Program-made: the position numbers and the translations under genes
The notes under the pieces: model-generated
The model's input: only the letters and a program-made list of their open reading frames with translations
Databases searched by the model: none
What the model was told of the DNA's origin: nothing
Shown: positions 46,233-60,271 of the stretch, in pieces
Layout: every line of letters starts with the position of its first letter
Position numbering within the stretch: position 1 is the first letter of the stretch
Source of the DNA: Pseudomonadota bacterium
GTDB lineage: Bacteria; Pseudomonadota; Alphaproteobacteria; Sphingomonadales; Govanellaceae
DNA: 64,000 nucleotides
Direction: 5' to 3'
Assembly (NCBI GenBank): GCA_003577275.1
Contig: QEVO01000006.1
Location: 62,001-126,000, forward strand

Positions 46233-46274
46233 TTGACAGCGGTCAAGTAACAAGGCGGGCAATGGCGCTATAGC
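46233..46274 (+). promoter_or_regulatory. Crp/FNR-type class II promoter of the porin gene
   Basis: TTGAC-AGCG-GTCAA at 46233-46246 is a perfect 10-base palindrome of the DNR/NNR/FNR type. TATAGC at 46269-46274 lies exactly where the -10 box falls if the site is centred at -41.5, giving a start at about 46281 and a 25-base leader to the ATG at 46306. Activation by one of the Crp/FNR proteins in this window is therefore likely. Confidence 0.75.
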
Positions 46275-46305: not shown

Positions 46306-47520
46306 ATGAAATGGAACTCTGCTCTGCTGACCATTGCCGCAACCGCCATCGCCACGCCGGCCGTGGCGGGCGACGCGACGGCGTTCATCAACGACGCCAA
46401 GCCTTACGTCGATGCCCGCTACCGCTATGAATTCGTCGACCAGAAGGGACTTTTACACAATGCCAACGCCTCGACGCTGCGCGTGCGCGCCGGCGTGCGC
46501 TCCGGCGTGGTGGCGGGGTTCAGCGTGGTGGCGGAAGGCGAGGCGATCGTCACCGTCGGCAGCGAGAACTTCAACGACACCATCAACGGCAAGGTGACGT
46601 ATCCGGTGGTGGCCGATCCCGAGGACGTGGTGCTCAATCAGTTGGCGGCGCGCTGGAACGGCATCAAGGAGATCGATGTCATCGGCGGCCGTCAGACCAT
46701 CAATCTTGGCAATCAGCGCTTCATCGGCTCGGTGGGCTGGCGGCAGAATGACCAGACCATGGACGCCGGCATGGTGACGGTCAGCGCGTTGCCCGGCCTG
46801 AAGGCGACCTATGCCTACGCCTGGCGGGTCAACCGGGTGTTCGGGCCGGATTCCCCGGTGGGTATCTGGCGCGACAACAACATCCATCTCCTGCACGCGG
46901 AATACGACGCCAAGGCGCTGGGCGTGCTCACCGCCTACGGCTATTTCCTCGACATTCCCGATGCCCCCGGCTCGTCGTCCAAGACCTTTGGCGCGCGGCT
47001 GGCCGGCAAGGCGCAGTTGGCCAATGCCGTCGCCGCGCTCTATGCGCTGGAGTTCGCCCATCAGACCGAGCACGGCGATAATCCGGCCAACTTCGGCCTC
47101 GATTATTTCCTGATTGAGCCGGGCCTAGCCTGGAAAAGCCTGACCTTAAAGGCGGGCTATGAACGCCTGGAGGGCAACGGCTCGGTGGCGTTCCAGACGC
47201 CGCTTGCCACCTTGCATGCCTTTAACGGCTGGGCCGACAAGTTCCTGACCACCCCGGCCAACGGCCTGGAGGACATCTACGTCGACGTGACCTACAAGCA
47301 CGCCGGTAATGACTTCCTGGCCGGCACCACGTTCAAGGTGGTCTATCATGATTTCTCGTCCACCGAAAACAGCATCGACTATGGAACCGAGTGGAATGCC
47401 TTGATTTCCCGGGGCTTTGGCCCGCATGTGACGGTCACCGCCAAGCTTGCCGACTATAACGCCGACGGCTTCGCCACCGACACCACCAAGGTCATGCTGA
47501 TGACCGAGGTGAAGTTCTGA
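46306..47520 (+). CDS. Outer-membrane beta-barrel porin-like protein
   Basis: A 404-residue secreted protein with signal peptide ending ATPAVAG. The mature part is a series of amphipathic strands (YVDARYRYEFVDQKGL, STLRVRAGVRSGVVAGFSVVAEGEAIV, RQTINLGNQRF) and resembles the alginate-export/porin-like barrels; it ends in a C-terminal phenylalanine (VMLMTEVKF). The ATG follows GGAGG within CCCAAGGAGGAAACGAAC. Placed between a Crp/FNR-type site and the NIT-Crp regulator of a nitrate locus, it is a candidate outer-membrane pore for nitrate or nitrite; substrate is inference. A GC-rich hairpin follows its stop. Confidence 0.82.
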   Translation: MKWNSALLTIAATAIATPAVAGDATAFINDAKPYVDARYRYEFVDQKGLLHNANASTLRVRAGVRSGVVAGFSVVAEGEAIVTVGSENFNDTINGKVTYPVVADPEDVVLNQLAARWNGIKEIDVIGGRQTINLGNQRFIGSVGWRQNDQTMDAGMVTVSALPGLKATYAYAWRVNRVFGPDSPVGIWRDNNIHLLHAEYDAKALGVLTAYGYFLDIPDAPGSSSKTFGARLAGKAQLANAVAALYALEFAHQTEHGDNPANFGLDYFLIEPGLAWKSLTLKAGYERLEGNGSVAFQTPLATLHAFNGWADKFLTTPANGLEDIYVDVTYKHAGNDFLAGTTFKVVYHDFSSTENSIDYGTEWNALISRGFGPHVTVTAKLADYNADGFATDTTKVMLMTEVKF

Positions 47521-47527
47521 TCATCCT

Positions 47528-47555
47528 GGCCTCGCCGGTTATCCCCGGCGGGGCC
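47528..47555 (+). terminator. GC-rich hairpin after the porin gene
   Basis: An 11-bp stem with one G-T pair (47528-47538 with 47545-47555, 6-base loop) starts 8 bases after the stop codon. No T-run follows, so it may be a weak terminator or mRNA-end stabiliser. Confidence 0.5.
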
Positions 47556-47672
47556 ATCTACTTATCCGCTTAAGCTTGCCATACCGTTTAGAATCGACCA
47601 ATCTGCCGGGAACTTCTATAACAAACCGCGCTACGGCGGTTATACTGATGATTGGTCACTGAGGGATACGGA

Positions 47673-49187
47673 ATGGCGGCGACGATAGTCCCCTTATGCA
47701 AGTTCGTGCATGAGGCGCAACGGGAGCGGGGGCTGGCCATGCTGTGTTCCGGCCCCGGTGGCGATACCTATGCCGACGCCTACCGGCGACAGAACGGCAT
47801 CGTCGATGCCGCCTGGCGGGCGGTTACCGTGGTTGCCGATCTTTCCGACGATCATATCGAACAGGTCAGCGGGCTGATGCCCGAGCTGGCGCGGCGGCGG
47901 GCGGGCGTGCTCAAGGGCAAGGCCGAAACCGGCGACCTGATAGCCTTCTACAGCCGGTCGCTGATCGAGCCGGCGCTGGAGGCGGCCGCGGTCGCCGCCA
48001 CCCTCGACCCCTTGAATGACCCGTCGCGGGTCAGCGCTTTTGTTAATCTTCTCAAATGGAAAGAGCGGGTAGGCCAGGTCCGGGCGGTGGGCGCCGCTCC
48101 GGGCGAGGATGGCCCGGCGGTGTGTGATCGCGCCAATCGCCTCAAACCCATCGTCGCCGAATTGAAGGCCTATGAGCGGACGTTTCTCGCTCTTTGCGGC
48201 CCAGCTCAGCGCCAGCATTACGATAGCATGGTCGGTCGGGCGCCGGAGGCGCGCCGGGTCAATGCCATCGAGGGCGCCATTGTTGGCGGCGACAGCGCGG
48301 AAGAACTTAAAAAGGCCTCCCCCGAAGCTTGGTTTGACCTCATCAGCACCAAGATGGATATGCTGCAGCAGGTAGTGCTGTATTTCGCCGATAATCTGGC
48401 GGTGGCGGCAGATGGGCCCAACTGCCGGGTGGTGCCGCGGCTGCCGGCGGAAATACAGGCCCGTCTCGGGGTGATTTGCGATTCGCCGCTGTTCGCCGGC
48501 TTGAGCGAGCAGGCGCTGGGGGAAATTTTATCCCAGGGACGCATCGTCAGCCATCCCCGCGGCGCGGTCATCTTCCTTCATGGCGAGCCGGTGGAGCGGT
48601 TCTATCTGGTGCTGCAAGGCTGGGTGAAGCTGTTGAAGGGCAACGCCGAAGGCGAGGAATCGGTGTTCGAGGTGCTGACCACCGGCGACGGCTTTCCCGA
48701 TACGGTGATTTTCAAGGACGCCATCTACCCGGTCACCGCCCAGGCGGTGGAGGCCGTGGAGCTCTTGTCGCTGCCCGCCTCGGTGGTGCGCGAGCGGGTC
48801 AAGAACGACCAGGAATTCGCCCTCAACATGCTGGCGGCGGCGGCCAACCGCTCCAAGGCGCTGATCAGTCAGTTCGAACAGTTGACCTTGAAAAAGGTGA
48901 CGGAGCGGGTGGGGCGGTTCCTCTTAAAGCAGTTCATCGCCGCCGGCGACAGCCGCACCACCCTTGAGTTGCCGCTGGAGAAATCGGTGATCGCCTCCTA
49001 TCTCGGCATGAAGCCCGAGACCTTTTCGCGCACCTTGCAGGCATTGCGGGAGGAGGGGATCGACATCAACCGCAACGTGGTGACGCTGCCGGATACCTTC
49101 GCGCTGTGCACCTATTGCGATGTCGACTTGGCCACCACCTGCTTTCGTAAATCCTGCCCCGAATGTCCGTTCCATAACGAGACCTAA
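47673..49187 (+). CDS. NIT-domain/Crp-FNR fusion regulator with five-cysteine tail
   Basis: A 504-residue fusion. Residues about 8-235 look like the nitrate/nitrite-sensing NIT domain: FVHEAQRERGLAML (QRERG at 16-20) and KERVGQVRAVG (130-140) match the QxERG and KExxGQxRAxG signatures that carry the ligand arginines in NasR. About 265-390 is a cyclic-nucleotide-fold domain (FLHGEPVERFYLVLQGWVKLL), followed by an FNR-like HTH (SVIASYLGMKPETFSRTLQALREEGI). The tail has C479-x2-C482-x7-C490-x4-C495-x2-C498, able to hold a metal or cluster. Usual NIT proteins use histidine kinase, ANTAR or chemotaxis outputs. The ATG at 47673 follows GAGGG; a TTG at 47652 is less likely. Neighbours are a porin, mobA and the nar operon. 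Confidence 0.82.
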   Translation: MAATIVPLCKFVHEAQRERGLAMLCSGPGGDTYADAYRRQNGIVDAAWRAVTVVADLSDDHIEQVSGLMPELARRRAGVLKGKAETGDLIAFYSRSLIEPALEAAAVAATLDPLNDPSRVSAFVNLLKWKERVGQVRAVGAAPGEDGPAVCDRANRLKPIVAELKAYERTFLALCGPAQRQHYDSMVGRAPEARRVNAIEGAIVGGDSAEELKKASPEAWFDLISTKMDMLQQVVLYFADNLAVAADGPNCRVVPRLPAEIQARLGVICDSPLFAGLSEQALGEILSQGRIVSHPRGAVIFLHGEPVERFYLVLQGWVKLLKGNAEGEESVFEVLTTGDGFPDTVIFKDAIYPVTAQAVEAVELLSLPASVVRERVKNDQEFALNMLAAAANRSKALISQFEQLTLKKVTERVGRFLLKQFIAAGDSRTTLELPLEKSVIASYLGMKPETFSRTLQALREEGIDINRNVVTLPDTFALCTYCDVDLATTCFRKSCPECPFHNET

Positions 49188-49286: not shown

Positions 49287-49910
49287 ATGCACGATCGCAG
49301 CGATCTGAATTCCCAGAAAGACGCGCCGGGCGCGTTCGGCATTCTGCTGTTGGCCGGCGGCCGTTCGCGGCGCATGGGCTGCGACAAAGCTCAGCTCTCC
49401 TACCACGGCCGGCCCTTGATCGAGCACATGCAGCGGCGGCTGGACGCCATGGGCCCGGCGCGCCTGGTCATCGGCGGCCGTTTGCCGGGGCTGCGCGATC
49501 TGGTGCCTGATGGCGGACCGGTGGCTTCGATCTGCGCGTTGGCTCAGAACCTGGCGCTCAGCGGCGGGCTTGAGCAGTGGCTTATCGTGCCGGTGGATAT
49601 GCCGCTTCTGGCCCCGGATCTGCTCTTCAGGCTGCTCTCAGATCCGGCGCCCGCCGCTTATTTTATCGCCCATCCCTTGCCGGCGGCGCTGCGGCTCGAC
49701 AACGATGTTAAAGCATTTCTGAAAGTCGCGGCGCGGGACTTGAAGGCGGGACGAGGGGTGCCGGTCAAGCGCCTGTTGGCGGCCGTCAAGGCCAGCGCCG
49801 TCATGCCCACCGCCGAGGAGGTGGGCAAGCTATTGAACATCAATACGCCGGAGGAATGGGCGGCGCTGCTGTCCCGGGAAGAGGGCATTAATACGCAGGG
49901 TCGTCGATAA
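49287..49910 (+). CDS. mobA: Molybdenum cofactor guanylyltransferase
   Basis: Attaches GMP to molybdopterin to give the bis-MGD cofactor that nitrate reductase needs. From the ATG at 49287 the protein has 207 residues. The nucleotide loop ILLLAGGRSRRMGCDKAQLSYHGRPLIEHM and the acid-containing LIVPVDMPLLAPDLLFRLL are clear, and it ends NINTPEEWAALL, a MobA signature. A GTG at 49266 in frame would add 7 residues. It is placed directly before the nitrate reductase cluster, a sensible pairing. Its 3' end overlaps the convergent Crp/FNR gene by 23 bases. Confidence 0.92.
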   Translation: MHDRSDLNSQKDAPGAFGILLLAGGRSRRMGCDKAQLSYHGRPLIEHMQRRLDAMGPARLVIGGRLPGLRDLVPDGGPVASICALAQNLALSGGLEQWLIVPVDMPLLAPDLLFRLLSDPAPAAYFIAHPLPAALRLDNDVKAFLKVAARDLKAGRGVPVKRLLAAVKASAVMPTAEEVGKLLNINTPEEWAALLSREEGINTQGRR

Positions 49911-50586
49911 GCGGGATTGGCTTGGCGATGGTTTCCAAGCCGGCGATATCCGACAACTGAATGTCTCTGCCCGTCACCTTGACGCCATGGGCGGCCAGCG
50001 CTCCGAAGGAGCGGGACAGATTTTCCGAAGTCATGCCCAGAAGGGAGGCCAATGTTTGCTTCTCGGTGGGCAGCGTGAGGTTGCCGGTAGCGCCCTGAGT
50101 TTGATGTTCCTGCAGCAGGTAGTTGGCCAACCGCTCGATGGCGGTGCGCAACTTTTGATTGTTCAGCGCCTTCATGGTCCGGCGATAGGCCGACGCCAGT
50201 TCAAGGGCAAATGCTTTGGCGAAAGCAGCATCGCCGGCAAAGGCGGCGCGCACGCTTTCTCCCGGGATCATCAACACGCGGCTCTGCTCCACCGTTCTGG
50301 CCGACAGCAGATAATTGCCGTCGCGCAAAACCGCGGCGGCGGCGAAGGACGAAACCGGACGGACAATGGCCGCCGTGCTCTGTTTAGGCCCGGCATTGGC
50401 GAAAAGCTCGATGCAGCCTTCCAGAACGACATAGAAAAAGTCCGCCGGCTGATCTTCGCTAATCAGCTCGACCTGCGCCGGGAAGCGCTGAAGAAAACTG
50501 GCCTGGAGCAGCTTCTCAACTGTCATCTCGCTCGCTCCCGCGAATAACGGGAGAGTGCGAACGAGGGGAGCATCCTCCTGGCGCAT
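49888..50586 (-). CDS. Crp/FNR-family regulator without N-terminal cysteines (DNR/NnrR-like)
   Basis: A 232-residue regulator from the ATG at 50584-50586. It has the cyclic-nucleotide-fold domain (about 15-130, FYVVLEGCIELFANAG) and an HTH with LASLLGMTSENLSRSFGALAAHGVKVTG, whose E..SR keeps the FNR-like recognition residues. It lacks the FNR cysteine cluster, so it is not an iron-sulfur oxygen sensor; heme-dependent NO sensing as in DNR, or another input, are options. The open frame runs to 50658, but a perfect FNR box at 50623-50636 occupies that extension, supporting the shorter start. Divergent from narK and adjacent to mobA. Confidence 0.88.
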   Translation of the reverse strand: MRQEDAPLVRTLPLFAGASEMTVEKLLQASFLQRFPAQVELISEDQPADFFYVVLEGCIELFANAGPKQSTAAIVRPVSSFAAAAVLRDGNYLLSARTVEQSRVLMIPGESVRAAFAGDAAFAKAFALELASAYRRTMKALNNQKLRTAIERLANYLLQEHQTQGATGNLTLPTEKQTLASLLGMTSENLSRSFGALAAHGVKVTGRDIQLSDIAGLETIAKPIPLIDDPAY

Positions 50587-50622
50587 GGGTGATTCTCTTA
50601 AGCCTACCTGAGCAAAGGTTAC

Positions 50623-50636
50623 TTGATATTTATCAA
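50623..50636. promoter_or_regulatory. Perfect FNR box near the Crp/FNR gene start
   Basis: TTGAT-ATTT-ATCAA matches the FNR palindrome at all ten positions. It lies 37-50 bases upstream of the 50586 start of the minus-strand regulator and about 178 bases upstream of the predicted narK start, in the divergent region. It probably controls the regulator; a second function for narK is possible. Confidence 0.75.
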
Positions 50637-50759
50637 GCGGTTTATTTTTGTGTGTCAATCCATAGCAAGGAAGCTAGCAAGAAACAACAAAAACAGCCCC
50701 GGGTAACCGGCTTTTCAACGTTTTTAAGCTCGAAAATCAGCCATCTGCCGCCGCCTGGC

Positions 50760-50801
50760 TTGACCCTCATCAAGTGAAGGCCATGCAACTTTGGCGATAA
50801 T
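50760..50801 (+). promoter_or_regulatory. FNR-type class II promoter of narK
   Basis: TTGAC-CCTC-ATCAA at 50760-50773 matches the FNR palindrome at nine of ten positions. GATAAT at 50796-50801 is the -10, exactly at the spacing for a site centred at -41.5. The predicted start near 50808 leaves about 49 bases of leader before the narK ATG at 50857. Confidence 0.78.
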
Positions 50802-50856
50802 GCGGACCATGACGATCCGGCGCTCTTGCCGGCTCTCGTCCCATATGAGGTTGACC

Positions 50857-53595
50857 ATGCATCATCTCGACAAGGTGACATCAAGCGATCAGAACCGCGT
50901 GCTTGGCATGAGCACGCTGGCCTTCACGGTATGTTTTGCCGTGTGGACAATTTTTTCCATCATCGGGATACGGATTAAGGATGAGCTCGGCTTATCGGAA
51001 ACCGAATTCGGCTTGCTGGTCGGTACGCCGATCCTGACCGGTTCGCTGGTGCGAATTTTCCTTGGCATCTGGACCGATCAGTATGGCGGCCGCATCGTTT
51101 ATACCCTGGTCATGCTCTTTGCCGCGTTGGCGACTTTTTTATTATCCTATGCCGACACCTACGAGATGATCCTGCTGGCGGCCTTGGGCGTCGGCCTCGC
51201 CGGCGGCTCGTTCGCCGTCGGCATCGCTTACGTCTCCAAATGGTACCCTAAGGAAAAGCAGGGAACGGCGCTCGGCATCTTCGGCGTCGGCAACGTCGGC
51301 GCGGCGGTGACCAAGTTCATCGCGCCGTTCGTGCTCGTGGCGTACGGCTGGACGACGGTGGCGCAGGTGTGGGCGGCGGCGTTGGTGGTCATGGCGGCGA
51401 TCTTCTGGATCACCACCAAGGATGACCCGGAACTGGTGGCGCGCCGGGAAAAAGGCGAAAAGGCGCGCGGCACGCTGTTGCAGCTTGAACCGTTAAAGAA
51501 ACAGCAGGTATGGCGCTTCGCGCTTTATTATTTCTTTGTGTTCGGCGCCTTCGTGGCGTTGGCGCTGTGGCTGCCGCGTTACCTGATCGGCGTCTATAAT
51601 GTGGATATCAAGACGGCGGGCATGCTCGGCGCCCTCTACTCCATACCGGCGAGCCTGTTTCGCGCCTATGGCGGCCATCTCTCCGATCGCTTCGGCGCGC
51701 GTAAAGTAATGTACGCGACGTTCGGCGTCTCTCTCGTCTGCCTGTTCATGCTGTCTTATCCCAATACCGACTACGTCATTCACGGCATACGCGGCGACAT
51801 CACTTTCTCCACCAGCATGGCGCTGGCGCCGTTCATCGTTACGGTATTCGTTCTCGGCTTTTTCATGTCGCTGGGCAAGGCGGCAGTCTATAAGCACATC
51901 CCCGTCTATTATCCCGAGCACGTCGGCGCGGTCGGCGGCCTTGTGGGCATGATCGGCGGCCTGGGCGGTTTCATATTGCCCATCCTGTTTGGCGCCATGA
52001 ACGATCTGACCGGCATTTGGACAAGCTGTTTCGTGCTGCTTTTTGCCATTGTCGGCGTGGCGACGGTGTGGATGCACATTGCCGTGCGCCAGATGGAGCG
52101 CGAAGCTACAGGCGCGGAACTGGCGCAACTACCGCAATTTCCAGAACTGCGGGAAATTCACGAGCCCAAAAAGCATGCGGCGGCGTCGCCCATCGTGCTT
52201 ACCGATTGGCGGCCCGAGGATGAAGCGTTCTGGGAGGAGAAGGGCCGGCGCATCGCGCAACGGAACCTGTGGATATCGATCCCCTGCCTGCTGCTGGCCT
52301 TCTCGGTATGGATGGTGTGGAGCGTGGTGGTGGCGAAACTGCCCTCCATCGGCTTTAACTACACCACCGATCAGCTTTTCTGGCTGGCGGCGCTGCCGGG
52401 GCTATCGGGAGCGACGCTCAGGATCTTCTACTCCTTCATGGTGCCGATCTTCGGCGGCCGTCTGTGGACGACCATGAGCACGCTGTCGCTGTTGATCCCG
52501 GCGTTCGGCATCGGCTATGCGGTGCAAAATCCCAACACGCCGTATTTCCTGTTCCTGGTGTTGGCGTTGCTGTGCGGCTTCGGCGGCGGCAACTTCGCGT
52601 CGTCCATGGCCAACATCAGCTTCTTCTTCCCCAAGAGCCAGAAGGGCAACGCGCTGGCCTTGAATGCGGGTCTCGGCAATGCCGGCGTCAGCATCATGCA
52701 GTTCGCGGTGCCGCTGGTGATCACCGCCAGCATCTTCGGCGCGATCGGCGGCGCACCGCAAGAAGCAGCGGACGGCACGAAATTATGGCTGCAGAACGCC
52801 GGCTTCATCTGGGTGCCGTTTCTCATTCTTTCGGCGGCCCTCGCCTGGTTCGGCATGAACGACATCGCTGCGGCCAAGGCTTCGTTCTCCGAGCAATCGG
52901 TGATCTTCCAGCGCAAGCATAACTGGATCATGTGCTGGCTTTATACCGGCACCTTCGGTTCTTTCATCGGCTATTCGGCGGGCTTTCCGCTGCTGGCAAA
53001 GACGCAGTTTCCCGATATCAATTCGCTGAAGTACGCCTTCCTCGGGCCCTTGATCGGCGCACTGTCCCGCGCCGGAACGGGGTGGATTTCCGACAAGTTC
53101 GGCGGCGGCCGTGTCACCTTCTGGGTCTTCATCATGATGATCGTAGGCGTCGCCGGCGTGCTTTACTTCCTCGGCATCAAGGATCAGCCGGGCGCGTTCT
53201 GGGGCTTCTTCGCCATGTTCATGGTGCTGTTCTTCGCCGCCGGCGTCGGCAACGCCTCGACCTTCCAGATGATCCCCATCATCATGCGCAAGGAAATGAG
53301 CCGCCTGATGCCGCGCTCCACCGAGGCGGAACGCTTGCGCCATGCCGAGAAGGAGTCGGCGGCGATCATCGGCTTCACCTCGGCCATCGCCGCTTATGGA
53401 GCATTCTTCATCCCCAAAGCTTACGGCACGTCCATCGCCGCAACAGGCAGTCCCGAGGGCGCGCTGTGGGGATTCCTGCTCTTTTATGTAACCTGCGTGC
53501 TGGTGACATGGTTCGTCTACACCCGGCGCGGCGGCATGCTCTATGACATTGAGCACAAACGCAGCGGCGCAGCCGCACCGCAATTCGCACAGTAA
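50857..53595 (+). CDS. narK: Fused NarK1-NarK2 nitrate/nitrite transporter
   Basis: Two NarK-type major facilitator domains in one chain of 912 residues, about 24 membrane helices. Domain 1 (about 15-430) has FSIIGIRIKDELGLSETEFGLLVGTPILTGSLVRI and GNVGAAVTKFIAPF; domain 2 (about 470-900) has MVWSVVVAKLPSIGFNYTTDQLFWLAALPGLSGATLRIFYSF and FNASSMANISFFFPKSQKGNALALNAGLGNAGVS-like motifs. In Paracoccus-type fusions the first half is a nitrate/proton symporter and the second a nitrate/nitrite antiporter. The ATG at 50857 follows GAGG by 7 bases and lies downstream of the predicted transcript start, which rules out the TTG at 50791. Eleven bases before narG. Confidence 0.95.
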   Translation: MHHLDKVTSSDQNRVLGMSTLAFTVCFAVWTIFSIIGIRIKDELGLSETEFGLLVGTPILTGSLVRIFLGIWTDQYGGRIVYTLVMLFAALATFLLSYADTYEMILLAALGVGLAGGSFAVGIAYVSKWYPKEKQGTALGIFGVGNVGAAVTKFIAPFVLVAYGWTTVAQVWAAALVVMAAIFWITTKDDPELVARREKGEKARGTLLQLEPLKKQQVWRFALYYFFVFGAFVALALWLPRYLIGVYNVDIKTAGMLGALYSIPASLFRAYGGHLSDRFGARKVMYATFGVSLVCLFMLSYPNTDYVIHGIRGDITFSTSMALAPFIVTVFVLGFFMSLGKAAVYKHIPVYYPEHVGAVGGLVGMIGGLGGFILPILFGAMNDLTGIWTSCFVLLFAIVGVATVWMHIAVRQMEREATGAELAQLPQFPELREIHEPKKHAAASPIVLTDWRPEDEAFWEEKGRRIAQRNLWISIPCLLLAFSVWMVWSVVVAKLPSIGFNYTTDQLFWLAALPGLSGATLRIFYSFMVPIFGGRLWTTMSTLSLLIPAFGIGYAVQNPNTPYFLFLVLALLCGFGGGNFASSMANISFFFPKSQKGNALALNAGLGNAGVSIMQFAVPLVITASIFGAIGGAPQEAADGTKLWLQNAGFIWVPFLILSAALAWFGMNDIAAAKASFSEQSVIFQRKHNWIMCWLYTGTFGSFIGYSAGFPLLAKTQFPDINSLKYAFLGPLIGALSRAGTGWISDKFGGGRVTFWVFIMMIVGVAGVLYFLGIKDQPGAFWGFFAMFMVLFFAAGVGNASTFQMIPIIMRKEMSRLMPRSTEAERLRHAEKESAAIIGFTSAIAAYGAFFIPKAYGTSIAATGSPEGALWGFLLFYVTCVLVTWFVYTRRGGMLYDIEHKRSGAAAPQFAQ

Positions 53596-53606
53596 ACGAG
53601 GGCGTC

Positions 53607-56600
53607 ATGAGTCATCTCTTGGATCGTTTGAACTTTTTCGCCAAGCGCGAGGTCGGCGCTTTTTCCGACGGACATGGCGTCACCACCGAGGAAGACCGCA
53701 CCTGGGAGGACGGTTATCGCAAGCGTTGGCAGCATGACAAGATCGTCCGCTCCACCCACGGCGCCAACTGCACCGGCTCGTGCTCGTGGAAGATCTATGT
53801 CAAAGGCGGCATCGTCACCTGGGAGACGCAGCAGACGGACTATCCGCGCACCCGCCCCGAGCTGCCCAACCACGAGCCGCGCGGCTGCGGCCGCGGCGCC
53901 AGCTATAGCTGGTATCTCTATTCGGGAAATCGGGTGAAGTATCCGCTGGTGCGCTCGCAATTACTCAAGCTGTGGCGGCAGGCGCGCGTCACCTTGCCGC
54001 CGGTGGCGGCGTGGGCTTCCATCGTCAAGGATCAGAAGAAACGCGACTCTTATACTAAAAAGCGCGGGCTGGGCGGTTTTGTGCGCGCCGACTGGGATGA
54101 GGTGAATGAAATCGTCGCCGCCGCCAACGCCTATACGATTAAGGATCATGGTCCCGACCGTATCATCGCTTTCTCGCCCATTCCGGCGATGTCCATGGTG
54201 TCCTATGCGGCGGGCTCGCGCTATGTCTCGCTGCTGGGCGGCGTGTGCATGTCGTTCTACGATTGGTATTGCGATCTGCCGCCATCGAGCCCCATGACCT
54301 GGGGCGAACAGACCGACGTACCGGAATCCGCTGATTGGTATAACGCCGGGTTCCTTATGCTGTGGGGCTCCAACGTGCCGCAGACCCGCACGCCCGACGC
54401 CCACTTTTATACCGAGGTGCGCTATCGCGGCACCAAGAGCGTGGTGGTCTGCCCCGACTATTCGGAAGCGGCGAAGTTCGCTGATCTGTGGCTCAACCCC
54501 AAGCAAGGCACCGATGCGGCGCTGGCCTTGGCCATGGGCCATGTGATCTTGCGCGAATATCATCTCGACCGTCAGGCCGGCTACTTCGAGCGCTACGCCC
54601 GGCAATACACCGATATGCCGATGCTGGTGCGGTTGGTCAAGCGCGGCAACGATTATGTGCCGGAGCGCCTGCTGCGCGCCGCCGACTTCGAGGGTGCGTT
54701 GGGGGAGAGCAACAACCCCGAATGGAAGACGGTGGCGGTTGACGGCAAGACCGGCGCCATCGTCGCGCCGCAAGGCTCGGTGGGCTTCCGCTGGGGCGAG
54801 CAGGGCAAATGGAACCTGGAAGAAAAGGACGCCGCCGGCAATGAGGTGTCGCTGCGGCTGACCAACATTCTCGACGATGATCATGACGATGTGGTCGATG
54901 TGGCGTTCCCTTACTTCGGCAACCGCGAGCATGATTATTTCGAGGGCACGGATCATCCCGATATCCTGTTGCGCAAGGTGCCGGTCAAGGCGCTGAAATT
55001 GAAGGATGGCGACTCGCTGGTCGCCACCGTGTTCGATCTTTTCGTCGCCAATTACGGGCTTGATCGTGGGCTGGGCGGCGAAAACGTCGCCGCTTCTTAC
55101 GACGATAACGTGCCCTATACGCCGGCCTGGGCGGAGCGCATCACCGGGGTGCCGCGCAATCATATCGTGACGGTGGCGCGGGAATTCGCCTCCAACGCCG
55201 AGAAGACCCATGGCAAATCCATGGTCATCATCGGCGCGGCGATGAACCACTGGTATCACATGGACATGAACTATCGCGGCGTCATCAATCTGTTGGTGAT
55301 GTGCGGCTGCATCGGCCAATCGGGCGGCGGCTGGTCGCATTACGTGGGCCAGGAGAAGCTGCGGCCGCAATCGGGCTGGCTGCCGCTGGCCTTCGGGCTG
55401 GATTGGAGCCGCCCGCCGCGCCAGCAGAACTCCACCTCGTTCTGGTATGCGCATACCGATCAATGGCGGTACGAGACTTTAGAGGCGTCGGAGATTCTGT
55501 CGCCCACTGCGCCGGAAGGGCCGTGGGACGCCGCGATGATTGATTTCAACGTCCGCGCCGAACGCATGGGCTGGCTGCCGTCCGCGCCGCAACTGGAGAC
55601 CAATCCGCTCGATATCGCCAAGGCGGCGGCCAAGGCCGGGCAGGAGCCCAAGGATTATCTGGTCTCGGCGCTTAAATCCGGCGAGGTCAAACTGTCCTGC
55701 CATGATCCCGACAATCCCAAGAACTGGCCGCGCAATATGTTCGTCTGGCGCTCCAATATTCTGGGTTCGTCGGGCAAGGGCCATGAGTATTTCTTAAAGC
55801 ATCTCCTGGGTACCTCGCATGGCGTGCAGGGCAAGGATCTGGGCGGCATGGGGATCGCCAAGCCCAAGGATGTGGTGTGGCATGATGAGGCGCCGGAAGG
55901 AAAACTGGATCTGCTGGTGACCATCGACTTTCGCATGTCCACTACCTGCGTTTATTCCGACATCGTGCTGCCTACCGCGACGTGGTACGAAAAGAACGAT
56001 CTGAATACCTCCGACATGCACCCCTTCATTCATCCCTTGACCGCCGCGGTCGATCCGGTGTGGGGCGCCAAGAGCGATTGGGAAATCTACAAAGGCTTTG
56101 CTAGTAAGTTTTCCGAGATCGCGCCGGAAGTGCTGGGGGTGGAGAAAGATACGGTGTTGACGCCTATCCTCCACGACACGCCGGCGGAAATCGCCCAGGC
56201 GCTGGACGTCAAGGATTGGACAAAAGGCGAGATTGAAGCCATTCCCGGCAAAACCATGCCGCAGATCACCGTGGTCGAGCGCGATTATCCCAATCTTTAT
56301 AAGCGCTTCACCGCCTTGGGCCCGCTGATGACCAAGATCGGCAACGGCGGCAAGGGCATGGCGTGGAATACCGAACACGAGGTAGAGCTTCTAAAAGGCT
56401 TGAACGGCGTGGTCGATGACGAGGGACCGAGCAAGGGCTTGGCTCGCATCGAGACCGATATCGATGCGGCGGAAGTGATCCTCATGCTGGCGCCGGAAAC
56501 CAACGGCGAGGTGGCGGTCAAGGCTTGGGAATCTCTGTCGAAATTCACCGGCCGCGAGCACGCCCATCTGGCGCTGCCGAAGGAAGACGAGAAAATCCGC

Positions 56601-57332
56601 TTCCGCGATGTGGTGGCGCAGCCGCGCAAGATCATTTCCTCGCCCATCTGGTCGGGCCTGGAATCGGAGAAAGTGTGCTATAACGCCGGCTATACCAATG
56701 TGCATGAGCTGATCCCCTGGCGTACGCTGACCGGTCGTCAGCAGCTTTACCAGGATCATCTGTGGATGCGCGCCTTCGGCGAGGCATTGTGCGTCTACCG
56801 TCCGCCCATCGACACCAAGACGGTCAAGCCGATGCTCGATCGCGCCGGCGGTAAGCACGTGGTGTTGAACTTCATCACGCCGCACCAGAAATGGGGCATC
56901 CATTCCACCTATACCGATAACTTGCTGATGCTGACCTTGTCGCGCGGCGGTCCCATCGTGTGGCTGTCGGAAGTTGACGCGGCCAAAGCCGGCATCGTCG
57001 ATAACGATTGGGTGGAAGCCTTCAACGTCAACGGCGCGCTGGTGGCGCGGGCGGTGGTGTCGCAGCGCATGAAGGAAGGCACCATCTTCATGTACCACGC
57101 CCAGGAGAAGATCGTGAACGTGCCGGGATCGGAAATCACCGGCCAACGCGGCGGCATTCACAATTCGGTCACCCGGGCGGTATTGAAGCCCACCCACATG
57201 ATCGGCGGCTATGCCCAGCAGTCCTACGGCTTCAACTACTACGGCACGGTGGGATCGAACCGCGATGAGTTTGTGATTGTGCGCAAGATGAGTGAAGTCG
57301 ACTGGCTGGATCAGCCGGCGGCGGCAGAGTAA
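53607..57332 (+). CDS. narG: Respiratory nitrate reductase alpha subunit
   Basis: Molybdenum bis-MGD subunit that reduces nitrate to nitrite on the cytoplasmic face of the membrane. The 1241-residue chain has the FS0 cluster ligands His51, Cys55, Cys59 and Cys94 (HGANCTGSCSW and RGCGRGASY), the molybdenum aspartate region SFYDWYCDLPPSSPMTWGEQTDVPESADWYN, and the C-terminal cofactor-binding LNFITPHQKWGIHSTYTDNLLML. An amino-terminal twin-arginine remnant (SDGHGVTTEEDRTWEDGYRKRW) is usual for the family. It follows narK by 11 bases and precedes narH, in the conserved narKGHJI order. Confidence 0.98.
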   Translation: MSHLLDRLNFFAKREVGAFSDGHGVTTEEDRTWEDGYRKRWQHDKIVRSTHGANCTGSCSWKIYVKGGIVTWETQQTDYPRTRPELPNHEPRGCGRGASYSWYLYSGNRVKYPLVRSQLLKLWRQARVTLPPVAAWASIVKDQKKRDSYTKKRGLGGFVRADWDEVNEIVAAANAYTIKDHGPDRIIAFSPIPAMSMVSYAAGSRYVSLLGGVCMSFYDWYCDLPPSSPMTWGEQTDVPESADWYNAGFLMLWGSNVPQTRTPDAHFYTEVRYRGTKSVVVCPDYSEAAKFADLWLNPKQGTDAALALAMGHVILREYHLDRQAGYFERYARQYTDMPMLVRLVKRGNDYVPERLLRAADFEGALGESNNPEWKTVAVDGKTGAIVAPQGSVGFRWGEQGKWNLEEKDAAGNEVSLRLTNILDDDHDDVVDVAFPYFGNREHDYFEGTDHPDILLRKVPVKALKLKDGDSLVATVFDLFVANYGLDRGLGGENVAASYDDNVPYTPAWAERITGVPRNHIVTVAREFASNAEKTHGKSMVIIGAAMNHWYHMDMNYRGVINLLVMCGCIGQSGGGWSHYVGQEKLRPQSGWLPLAFGLDWSRPPRQQNSTSFWYAHTDQWRYETLEASEILSPTAPEGPWDAAMIDFNVRAERMGWLPSAPQLETNPLDIAKAAAKAGQEPKDYLVSALKSGEVKLSCHDPDNPKNWPRNMFVWRSNILGSSGKGHEYFLKHLLGTSHGVQGKDLGGMGIAKPKDVVWHDEAPEGKLDLLVTIDFRMSTTCVYSDIVLPTATWYEKNDLNTSDMHPFIHPLTAAVDPVWGAKSDWEIYKGFASKFSEIAPEVLGVEKDTVLTPILHDTPAEIAQALDVKDWTKGEIEAIPGKTMPQITVVERDYPNLYKRFTALGPLMTKIGNGGKGMAWNTEHEVELLKGLNGVVDDEGPSKGLARIETDIDAAEVILMLAPETNGEVAVKAWESLSKFTGREHAHLALPKEDEKIRFRDVVAQPRKIISSPIWSGLESEKVCYNAGYTNVHELIPWRTLTGRQQLYQDHLWMRAFGEALCVYRPPIDTKTVKPMLDRAGGKHVVLNFITPHQKWGIHSTYTDNLLMLTLSRGGPIVWLSEVDAAKAGIVDNDWVEAFNVNGALVARAVVSQRMKEGTIFMYHAQEKIVNVPGSEITGQRGGIHNSVTRAVLKPTHMIGGYAQQSYGFNYYGTVGSNRDEFVIVRKMSEVDWLDQPAAAE

Positions 57333-57344
57333 GGAGAGTAGGTC

Positions 57345-58871
57345 ATGAAAGTTCGCGCCCAAGTCGGCATGGTCTTGAACCTCGATAAATGCATCGGCTG
57401 TCATACCTGCTCGATCACCTGCAAGAACGTGTGGACCAATCGTGAAGGCATGGAGTACGCCTGGTTCAACAACGTCGAATCGAAGCCCGGCGTCGGCTAT
57501 CCCAAAAATTGGGAAAGCCAGAAGCAGTGGAACGGCGGCTGGCTGCGTACCGCCGCCGGCAAGCTTCGTCCCAAGATCGGCGGCAAATTGCAGGTGCTGG
57601 CGAAAATTTTCGCCAACCCTGATCTGCCGCAGATCGACGATTATTACGAGCCCTTCACCTACGATTACGAGCACCTGCAAAAAGCGCCGGAGATGAAGGC
57701 CATGCCGACGGCGCGGCCGCGCTCGCTGATTACCGGCGAACGCATGGAGAAGATCGAGAGCGGACCGAACTGGGAGGAAATCCTCGGCGGTGAATTTTCC
57801 AAGCGCTCCAAGGACTATAACTTCGAAGGGGTCGAGAAGGAAATCTACGGCCAGTTCGAAAACACCTTCATGATGTACCTGCCGCGGCTGTGCGAGCATT
57901 GCTTGAACCCCACTTGCGTCGCCGCTTGTCCCTCGGGCGCCATTTATAAGCGCGCCGAGGACGGCATCGTGCTCATCGACCAGGAGAAGTGCCGGGGCTG
58001 GCGGATGTGCGTTTCCGGCTGTCCCTATAAGAAGATTTATTACAACTGGAACACCGGCAAGTCGGAGAAGTGCGTGTTCTGTTATCCGCGCATCGAATCG
58101 GGGCAGCCGACGGTGTGTTCGGAAACCTGCGTCGGGCGGATCCGCTATCTGGGCGTTCTCCTTTATGACGCCGACCGCATCGAGGCGGCGGCAGCGGTGA
58201 AGGACGAGAAAAATCTTTATGAAGAGCAGTTGGAAATCTTCCTCGATCCCCATGATCCCGAAGTGATCGCGCAAGCGCGCAAGGACGGTGTGCCGGACGC
58301 TTGGCTGGAGGCGGCGAAAAAATCGCCGGTCTACAAGATGGCGTGCGACTGGAAGGTGGCCTTCCCCCTCCATCCCGAATACCGCACCCTGCCCATGGTG
58401 TGGTACGTGCCGCCGTTATCACCCATTCAGCAGGCCATGGAGGCCGGCAAAATCGGCGGCGATGGCGAGATGCCCGATGTGCGCTCGCTGCGCATTCCGG
58501 TGCGTTATCTCGCCAACATGTTGACCGCCGGGGATGAAAAGCCGGTGGTGCAGGCCTTGGAGCGCATGATGGCGATGCGCGCTTATATGCGCAAGAAAAC
58601 CGTGGACGGGGTGACGGATGAGACCGTCGCCAAGCGCGTGGCTTTAAGCGGCCGCCAGATCGAGGACATGTACCACGTAATGGCGATCGCCAACTACGAG
58701 GACCGCTTCGTCATCCCCACCAGCCACCGCGAGGTCAGCGAGGACGCCTATGACGTGCGCGGCGGCTGCGGCTTCTCGTTCGGCAACGGCTGTTCGGATG
58801 GGTCAAGCAAGGCCAATCTCTTTGGCGCGCCCAAGCGGCCGCGCATCAAAACGCCGACGGAGGTGATGTGA
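57345..58871 (+). CDS. narH: Respiratory nitrate reductase beta subunit
   Basis: Iron-sulfur electron-transfer subunit linking NarI to NarG, 508 residues. Four cysteine groups are visible: CIGCHTCSITCKNVW, CEHCLNPTCVAACPSGAIY, CRGWRMCVSGCPYKKIYYNW and KCVFCYPRIESGQPTVCSETC. In the third group tryptophan replaces a cysteine, giving the [3Fe-4S] centre typical of NarH. Its stop overlaps the narJ ATG by one base. Confidence 0.98.
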   Translation: MKVRAQVGMVLNLDKCIGCHTCSITCKNVWTNREGMEYAWFNNVESKPGVGYPKNWESQKQWNGGWLRTAAGKLRPKIGGKLQVLAKIFANPDLPQIDDYYEPFTYDYEHLQKAPEMKAMPTARPRSLITGERMEKIESGPNWEEILGGEFSKRSKDYNFEGVEKEIYGQFENTFMMYLPRLCEHCLNPTCVAACPSGAIYKRAEDGIVLIDQEKCRGWRMCVSGCPYKKIYYNWNTGKSEKCVFCYPRIESGQPTVCSETCVGRIRYLGVLLYDADRIEAAAAVKDEKNLYEEQLEIFLDPHDPEVIAQARKDGVPDAWLEAAKKSPVYKMACDWKVAFPLHPEYRTLPMVWYVPPLSPIQQAMEAGKIGGDGEMPDVRSLRIPVRYLANMLTAGDEKPVVQALERMMAMRAYMRKKTVDGVTDETVAKRVALSGRQIEDMYHVMAIANYEDRFVIPTSHREVSEDAYDVRGGCGFSFGNGCSDGSSKANLFGAPKRPRIKTPTEVM

Positions 58872-59569
58872 TGGCGAAAACCTTCAAGGCGCTCTCCCTG
58901 CTTCTCAGTTATCCGACGGCGGAAATCCAGGCCGCCGCCGGCGATATCGCAGCAGCGATCAACAGCGAAGGTCTGATCCAAGAACCGCTGTCGCGCGGCG
59001 TGCAGGACGTTGCGCAAGAGCTGGCGTCGAGCGATCTTTATGATCTTCAGGAACGCTATATATTACTGTTTGATCGCACCCGTTCGCTGTCCTTGCACCT
59101 CTTTGAACACGTGCATGGCGAAGGTCGCGACCGAGGGCAGGCGCTGGTGGATTTGAAAGCGCTTTACGAACAAAACGGCCTGGAAATCGGGACGAGCGAG
59201 CTGCCGGATTTCCTGCCGCTATTCCTCGAATTTCTATCGATGCTGCCGGAGGCGGAAGCGCGCGACCTGTTGGGTCAGCCGGCGCATATCTTGAATGCAC
59301 TGAAAGACCGCCTGCGGCAGCGCGGCAGCAGCTATGCGGTCTTGTTGGCGGCGCTCCTGTCGCTGGCGAATACGGACAACGCGCAGGCCGGCGATCTTAT
59401 CGAGGTGGGCGATGATAATCCCCACGATTTGGCGGCGCTCGACCGGCAATGGCAGGAGGAGGCCGTCACCTTCGGCCCGCCGACCGAGGGCGCGGGGTGC
59501 CCACGCATGGCGGATATCGTCAAGACCCTGAAGCCGTCGGAGATCGTAGGACAGGGAAGGGAAGGGTAA
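58871..59569 (+). CDS. narJ: Nitrate reductase assembly chaperone
   Basis: Cytoplasmic NarJ/TorD-family chaperone that inserts the molybdenum cofactor and holds NarGH until it docks on NarI. The 232 residues are all helical with the family opening KTFKALSLLLSYPTAEIQAA and the conserved YILLFDRTRSLSLHLFEHVHGEGRDRGQAL. A GTG three bases upstream in frame could also initiate. Translation is coupled to narH, and narI follows with a 3-base gap. Confidence 0.95.
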   Translation: MAKTFKALSLLLSYPTAEIQAAAGDIAAAINSEGLIQEPLSRGVQDVAQELASSDLYDLQERYILLFDRTRSLSLHLFEHVHGEGRDRGQALVDLKALYEQNGLEIGTSELPDFLPLFLEFLSMLPEAEARDLLGQPAHILNALKDRLRQRGSSYAVLLAALLSLANTDNAQAGDLIEVGDDNPHDLAALDRQWQEEAVTFGPPTEGAGCPRMADIVKTLKPSEIVGQGREG

Positions 59570-59572
59570 GTC

Positions 59573-60271
59573 ATGGAAAATTTCTTCAACACCCTGGTTT
59601 TCGGCATCTATCCTTACATCTGCCTGGCCGTGTTGGCGCTCGGGTCCATCTTCCGCTACGAGCGTGAGCCCTATAGCTGGCGTTCCGGCTCCAGCCAGTT
59701 GCTGCGCCGCCGTCAGTTGATGGTGGGCTCCAACCTATTTCACATTGGCGTACTGGTGATCTTCCTCGGCCATCTCGTCGGTCTGTTGACGCCCATTGCG
59801 GTCTATGACTTCTTCGGCATACCCCATGGCGCGAAACAGGTTATGGCGATGGCGGTGGGCGGCGTTGCCGGCGTGCTGGCGTTCATCGGCGCGTCCATGC
59901 TCCTTCATCGCCGGCTGAGCGACTCGCGCATCCGCACAACGTCGAGCTTCGGCGACATTGCCATCCTGGCGCTGTTGTGGTTGCAATTGCTTTTGGGACT
60001 TGGCACCATTACCGTCTCGCTCGATCATCTGGATGGCCATGAGATGGTGAAATTCATGTCCTGGGCGCAAGGTATATTCACGTTCGATGCGGCGGCGGCA
60101 AGCTACATCGCCGAGGTGCATCCCATCTTCAAGCTGCACCTGTTCCTGGGGCTTACCATCTTTCTGGTGTTTCCGTTCACCCGGCTGGTTCACTTCTTGA
60201 GCGCGCCGGTGCGGTATGTGTGGCGCACGGGTTATCAGGTGGTGCGCGCCCGGCCGTCATCGGGCGAGTGA
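59573..60271 (+). CDS. narI: Respiratory nitrate reductase gamma subunit
   Basis: Membrane cytochrome b that oxidises quinol and anchors NarGH. The 232 residues form five helices with heme-ligand histidines: SNLFHIGVLVIFLGHLVGLLTP, and IFKLHLFLGLTIFLVFPFTRLVHFLSAPVRYVWRTGYQVVRAR with both C-terminal ligands. The N-terminal NFFNTLVFGIYPYICLAVLALGSIFRYEREPYSWRSGSSQLL is also canonical. The hemerythrin-like gene follows after 12 bases. Confidence 0.97.
   Translation: MENFFNTLVFGIYPYICLAVLALGSIFRYEREPYSWRSGSSQLLRRRQLMVGSNLFHIGVLVIFLGHLVGLLTPIAVYDFFGIPHGAKQVMAMAVGGVAGVLAFIGASMLLHRRLSDSRIRTTSSFGDIAILALLWLQLLLGLGTITVSLDHLDGHEMVKFMSWAQGIFTFDAAAASYIAEVHPIFKLHLFLGLTIFLVFPFTRLVHFLSAPVRYVWRTGYQVVRARPSSGE

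Follow-up and report, generated by a model that had tools for sequence, protein, structure and literature searches.

Gene content of the locus

The NIT-Crp fusion gene described here lies in a stretch of 64,000 nucleotides (the window), between a porin-like and a MobA-like gene and upstream of a narKGHJI set. The genes concerned are:

46306-47520, + strand: porin-like gene, with a weak Alginate_exp match that is significant in its homologue L101
47673-49187, + strand: NIT-Crp fusion gene (NIT-crp), an open reading frame with ATG at 47673 and stop at 49187, 504 aa
49266-49910, + strand: MobA-like gene (PF12804, 74.1 bits)
49888-50658, - strand: gene for a NarR-type Crp/FNR regulator, divergent from narK (FtrB family model NF006901, 301 bits, cut-off 211)
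50791-53595, + strand: narK, encoding a fused double NarK of 934 aa; a homologous MFS-narG order occurs in Tistrella
53607-57332, + strand: narG (TIGR01580, 2158 bits)
57345-60271, + strand: narH, narJ and narI, with narH matched to narH of P. denitrificans and Tistrella

The narKGHJI set spans 50791-60271, and NIT-crp is not itself adjacent to narK in the window. An earlier note on this DNA named the porin, mobA and narKGHJI as neighbours of the fusion gene, as found here, and overlooked the NarR-type Crp/FNR gene between mobA and narK. An in-frame TTG is present at 47652, upstream of the NIT-crp ATG. Porin and NIT-crp may form one operon, with a G+C-rich inverted repeat (approximately 47527-47556, spotted by eye) intervening, and homologues of the window porin adjoin NIT-crp in relatives too. 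The window narK is a double-length fusion; most relatives carry two separate narK genes.

Domain composition of the NIT-Crp protein

The following features were assigned to the protein, with the invariance of residues taken from an alignment of 20 NIT-Crp members:

47703-48398, + strand: NIT domain, residues 11-242 (PF08376)
47718-47732, + strand: QRERG, residues 16-20, first putative nitrate motif (QxxR); Q16, E18 and R19 invariant in 20/20
48060-48092, + strand: KERVGQVRAVG, residues 130-140, second putative nitrate motif (GxxR); K130, E131, G134, R137 and G140 invariant in 20/20
48546-48803, + strand: cNMP-binding fold, residues 292-377 (PF00027, 59.9 bits, above cut-off)
48903-49109, + strand: Crp-type helix-turn-helix, residues 411-479, with recognition helix PETFSR (PF13545 HTH_Crp_2, 48.4 bits, above cut-off)
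49107-49169, + strand: cysteine tail, C479-x2-C482-D483-x6-C490-x7-C498-P499, invariant in 20/20

The earlier note had the open reading frame right (47673-49187, 504 aa), and both of its motifs, QRERG and KERVGQVRAVG, were found at exactly the residues it gave. Its division of the protein into a NIT and a Crp/FNR half is borne out by Pfam, in which NIT, cNMP_binding and HTH_Crp_2 all score far above cut-off; the PF08376 profile search that it suggested returned a match at residues 11-242 (94.4 bits, E 1.9e-26, cut-off 24.9) covering model positions 2-238 of 239. Together with PF00027 and PF13545, the PDB matches, which are Crp/FNR proteins, place NIT-Crp in the Crp/FNR superfamily. In the PDB comparison, 3h3z/3fx3 and DNR come closest to its Crp half. 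The NarR/FtrB-type model NF006901 gave 119 bits, below its cut-off of 211. An ANTAR domain was sought in Pfam without a match, and the Crp helix-turn-helix stands in its place.

NIT-Crp is a cytoplasmic protein, as it has no hydrophobic segment of membrane-spanning length (top 19-residue mean 1.33), and a membrane receptor is thereby ruled out; most NIT proteins found in the class are, unlike NIT-Crp, chemoreceptor-sized. A role as cAMP sensor was also rejected: at the phosphate-cassette position that we take, from comparison with E. coli CRP, to be that of the cAMP-contacting arginine, all 20 members have V, I or L. FNR has N-terminal cysteines that carry an Fe-S cluster, and DNR has haem. 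An N-terminal cysteine cluster of FNR type is absent from the 20-member alignment, where the NIT domain precedes the cNMP fold and holds no conserved cysteines. The structure model of NIT-Crp, computed from only two near-identical sequences (the window protein and a 98%-identical copy), reached a pLDDT of 35.7, too low to be of use.

Distribution and linkage to nar genes

The 98%-identical copy is encoded in a second genome (L001), and scanning genome contigs with the single sequence recovered no other. When 398 genomes of the order were searched, NIT-Crp fusions turned up in several families, so the fusion is not a singleton; the copy in L001 and about 40 more distant ones also rule out a chimeric assembly as its source. 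Among the 39 mapped loci of the order with the fusion, 36 have narK or narG in the same stretch, and at 31 of them NIT-crp and narK are direct neighbours in divergent orientation. A typical locus has narK1-narK2-narGHJI divergent from NIT-crp, with moaA/moeA-like genes (named in relatives from sequence reading) or the window's porin family next on the side of NIT-crp.

Outside the order, NIT-Crp occurs in G1103 and three more genomes of one genus, where L141, from another family, shows the same divergent NIT-crp/narK arrangement, and in G688 on a truncated contig. Among the matches listed from the rest of the phylum, beyond the class, none is a full-length NIT-Crp; viral contigs gave no relative, and on plasmids only the Crp halves matched.

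Co-occurrence with narG is strict. Of a set of 80 genomes from the order, 30 have NIT-Crp, and narG accompanies it in 30/30, against 8/50 among the others; NIT-Crp occurs in 0/42 genomes without narG (Fisher p 6e-15, with p values overstated because related genomes share history and are not independent). Two second paralogues (L095 12151-13716 and L099 654-2219) lie beside hemN-like and cbb3-oxidase-like genes, named from sequence reading rather than family search, and not beside nar.

The putative nitrate pocket

A profile built from the NIT halves of 19 members has NasR (4AKK) as its only significant solved relative (E 1.8e-20), and QxERG and KExxGxxRAxG of the family align with QCERG and KELAGQERALG of NasR. 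Nitrate chemoreceptors and kinases of the NarX/NarQ type have GxxR as their nitrate-binding motif, and in NasR a glutamine stands in for one of the glycines (PMC8199190). NIT-Crp has the pair Q16xxR19 and G134xxR137, invariant in 20/20 members, which fits this motif with the NasR-type glutamine. Outside the pocket, the NIT halves share no more than about 25-38% identity with the window copy.

The same motifs are present in 34/34 other NIT domains examined, and for this reason they permit nitrate binding and are rejected as proof of it. NIT domains from the fusions group as a single clade (100/100) to the exclusion of every other NIT tested, once one mislabelled L089 fragment (L143_25) is allowed for. 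This points to a single recruitment of the NIT domain into the fusions, as judged from the tree. The window's own genome also encodes a second NIT protein (G000:C2:115500-116255, L003) in an open frame of 674 aa, probably a chemoreceptor by its size.

Operator boxes

The recognition helix PETFSR is invariant and of FNR/DNR type, and TTGAT/TTGAC half-sites are therefore predicted. An exact TTGAY-N4-RTCAA palindrome is present in all 31 directly divergent NIT-crp/narK intergenic regions, against an average of 0.075 out of 31 (maximum 1) in dinucleotide shuffles. Towards narK, a -10 hexamer (TAATGT, CATAGT, TAATAT and similar) is matched best, on average, at a distance of 22 bases from the box; the centre of the box then falls at -41.5, the position of a class II activator. 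The exact palindrome occurs 31 times in the 3.25 Mb genome and three times in the 64 kb of the window:

46233-46246, + strand: TTGACAGCGGTCAA, FNR/DNR-type box upstream of the porin, with TATAGC at 46269-46274 at class II distance
50623-50636, no strand: TTGATATTTATCAA, box between the NarR-type gene and narK, an exact palindrome
50760-50773, + strand: TTGACCCTCATCAA, box upstream of narK, with GATAAT at 50796-50801 at class II distance

A box cannot identify its regulator, because FNR and NarR-type proteins, both encoded in this genome, should recognise the same sequence. Exact FNR/DNR-type boxes are present at the porin and narK promoters, which lends weight to the earlier note's suggestion of these as targets; the NarR-type protein and FNR could, however, occupy the boxes too. 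An FNR-like protein with an N-terminal cysteine cluster (CIHCEIRRLAIC) is encoded at approximately 1785-2354 of the window (- strand), from the match G000:C8:63785-64354.

Proposed function

NIT-Crp is probably a one-protein nitrate switch for the adjoining nitrate-respiration genes. The N-terminal NIT domain would bind nitrate and/or nitrite via Q16xxR19 and G134xxR137, and the ligand would shift the conformation of the dimeric Crp-type half, which would then bind TTGAY-N4-RTCAA operators centred near -41.5 upstream of narK. With nitrate present, the most likely outcome would be activation of narKGHJI and of accessory genes, i.e., the porin and genes for Moco biosynthesis. Transcription of narK, and probably of the porin too, would rise under general anaerobic control by FNR, and the cysteine tail perhaps adds anaerobic control of its own. 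In this genome NIT-Crp would work beside the NarR-type protein and FNR, and in most relatives it would replace NarR. We consider this cytoplasmic one-component scheme likely, and hold it with good confidence. A one-component nitrate-responsive regulator, as the earlier note had proposed, is in line with the homology, the invariant pocket motifs, the repeated nar linkage and the conserved operator.

The cysteine tail and a possible second input

The C-terminal tail (CxxCDx6Cx7CP) was overlooked in the earlier note. It is kept in nearly all 46 copies or fragments of the fusion, with small departures in a few, and is possibly an Fe-S or a zinc site. Since Bacillus Fnr has a C-terminal [4Fe-4S] cluster (PMC3520743), an oxygen-sensing cluster on the tail is a reasonable hypothesis; zinc is an equally possible and fair alternative.

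The tail opens a reading in which NIT-Crp has two inputs, nitrate on the NIT domain and, as in Bacillus Fnr, an oxygen- or NO-labile Fe-S cluster on the cysteines, so that nitrate and anoxia would be integrated. This is a real possibility, short of an even chance. It draws on the invariance of all four tail cysteines (20/20), on the precedent in Bacillus, and on Crp proteins that have the same tail and no NIT domain, one beside genes reading as cbb3 oxidase (L144) and one beside nar and ubiU/V-like genes for anaerobic ubiquinone (L145). However, the cysteines of NIT-Crp are spaced x2, x7, x7 and the ligands of Bacillus-type Fnr are C-x2-C-x4-C, zinc would fit the tail as well, and a classical FNR with N-terminal cysteines is already encoded in the genome.

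NIT-less Crp proteins with the same tail are also found divergent from narK in L158, L164 and L165 (G031, G047 and G092), where they adjoin the window's porin family and where relatives in the same genus (g20) carry NIT-Crp. The NIT domain is therefore not essential for nar control, as these three run nar with a NIT-less Crp. In a tree of Crp halves (in which row L008 is a mislabelled fragment of the window protein), NIT-Crp falls near the cysteine-tail proteins with weak deep support, and NarR is on a different branch. Tentatively, the fusions may be a clade-specific family of dual sensors, in which the NIT domain would read cytoplasmic nitrate, a cluster on the cysteine tail would read oxygen, NO or redox state, and one Crp output would control nitrate respiration and have replaced NarR; the NIT domain would have been added once to older cysteine-tail Crps that already controlled anaerobic respiration.

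The NarR-type regulator

How NarR perceives nitrate is, to our knowledge, not settled. In several alphaproteobacteria, Paracoccus denitrificans and Tistrella among them, homologues of the gene at 49888-50658 are divergent from narK-narG, and the gene is called NarR-type here on account of its position and similarity, which are those expected of NarR. NarR is the nitrate/nitrite-responsive nar regulator of Paracoccus (PMC8139620, PMC4771820), and a 2021 review describes alphaproteobacteria as lacking NarXL and responding to nitrate through NarR (PMC8139620). In most relatives, NIT-Crp holds the place that NarR has in other alphaproteobacteria; the window and a sister genome (L088) have both genes.

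An alternative reading is a division of labour, in which the NarR-type protein and FNR would control narKGHJI in this genome, NIT-Crp would act mainly on the porin (and on itself), and the nar role would belong to its relatives. In its favour, two boxes separate narK from the directly divergent NarR-type gene, and NIT-crp adjoins the porin, whose promoter has a box of its own. Set against this, the NIT-Crp of relatives is itself divergent from narK with a box, and the porin and narK boxes of the window are of the same type and have the same class II geometry. We regard this division as doubtful.

The ligand of the NIT half

It is also conceivable, though unlikely, that the NIT half senses another small ligand or only dimerises, which would make NIT-Crp an anaerobic or redox regulator. 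Not every NIT domain is a nitrate sensor, since that of P. aeruginosa PA4520 binds neither nitrate nor nitrite (PMC6381276); the three genomes with a NIT-less cysteine-tail Crp at the same nar position and the cbb3-linked paralogues of L095 and L099 point in the same direction. On the other hand, the pocket is invariant while the rest of the NIT half has diverged, and the fusion co-occurs strictly with narG. The only copy without G134 and R137, i.e., with GxxR lost (L080 8336-9904), lies at a distance from nar, with a carbonic anhydrase gene as its neighbour, and the nar locus of that genome carries a NIT-less Crp; this is a small observation in favour of the nitrate role.

Relation to known systems

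A close parallel to the proposed nitrate switch is NasR of Klebsiella oxytoca (a NIT-ANTAR antiterminator, 4AKK). Like NIT-Crp, it is a one-component protein of the cytoplasm whose NIT domain is N-terminal, and its QxERG and KExxGxxRALG motifs align. The output of NasR is an RNA-binding ANTAR domain that acts by antitermination, whereas that of NIT-Crp is a Crp-type DNA-binding half. With NarR of Paracoccus (FtrB/NF006901-like), NIT-Crp shares the type of regulator and the position divergent from narK-narGHJI, but NarR has neither a NIT domain nor a cysteine tail. FNR and DNR regulators have the same Crp fold, ExxSR-type recognition helix and TTGAY-N4-RTCAA operator type, and differ from NIT-Crp by its N-terminal NIT domain and C-terminal cysteine tail. 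Bacillus Fnr is a Crp/FNR protein with a C-terminal cysteine cluster (PMC3520743), although its cysteine spacing differs and it has no NIT domain. In NIT chemoreceptors, NarX, NarQ and McpN, the sensor is a NIT domain or a related four-helix module that contains GxxR; unlike NIT-Crp, they are membrane receptors that signal through Che or a histidine kinase.

Among the accessible portions of the open literature in which NIT is mentioned alongside Crp or FNR, none reports a fusion of this kind; such an architecture may be catalogued already. While the parts and the logic are known from NasR and NarR, the combination in NIT-Crp, its nar linkage and its cysteine tail appear undescribed in those portions.

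If the proposed function holds, NIT-Crp would provide a direct single-protein path from nitrate to promoter, with a recognised nitrate-sensor domain wired to a CRP-type switch, and would be a compact part for nitrate biosensors. Genus g20 offers a natural comparison of what the sensor contributes, as Crps with the NIT domain (L091-L095) and without it (L158, L164 and L165) occupy the same nar position.
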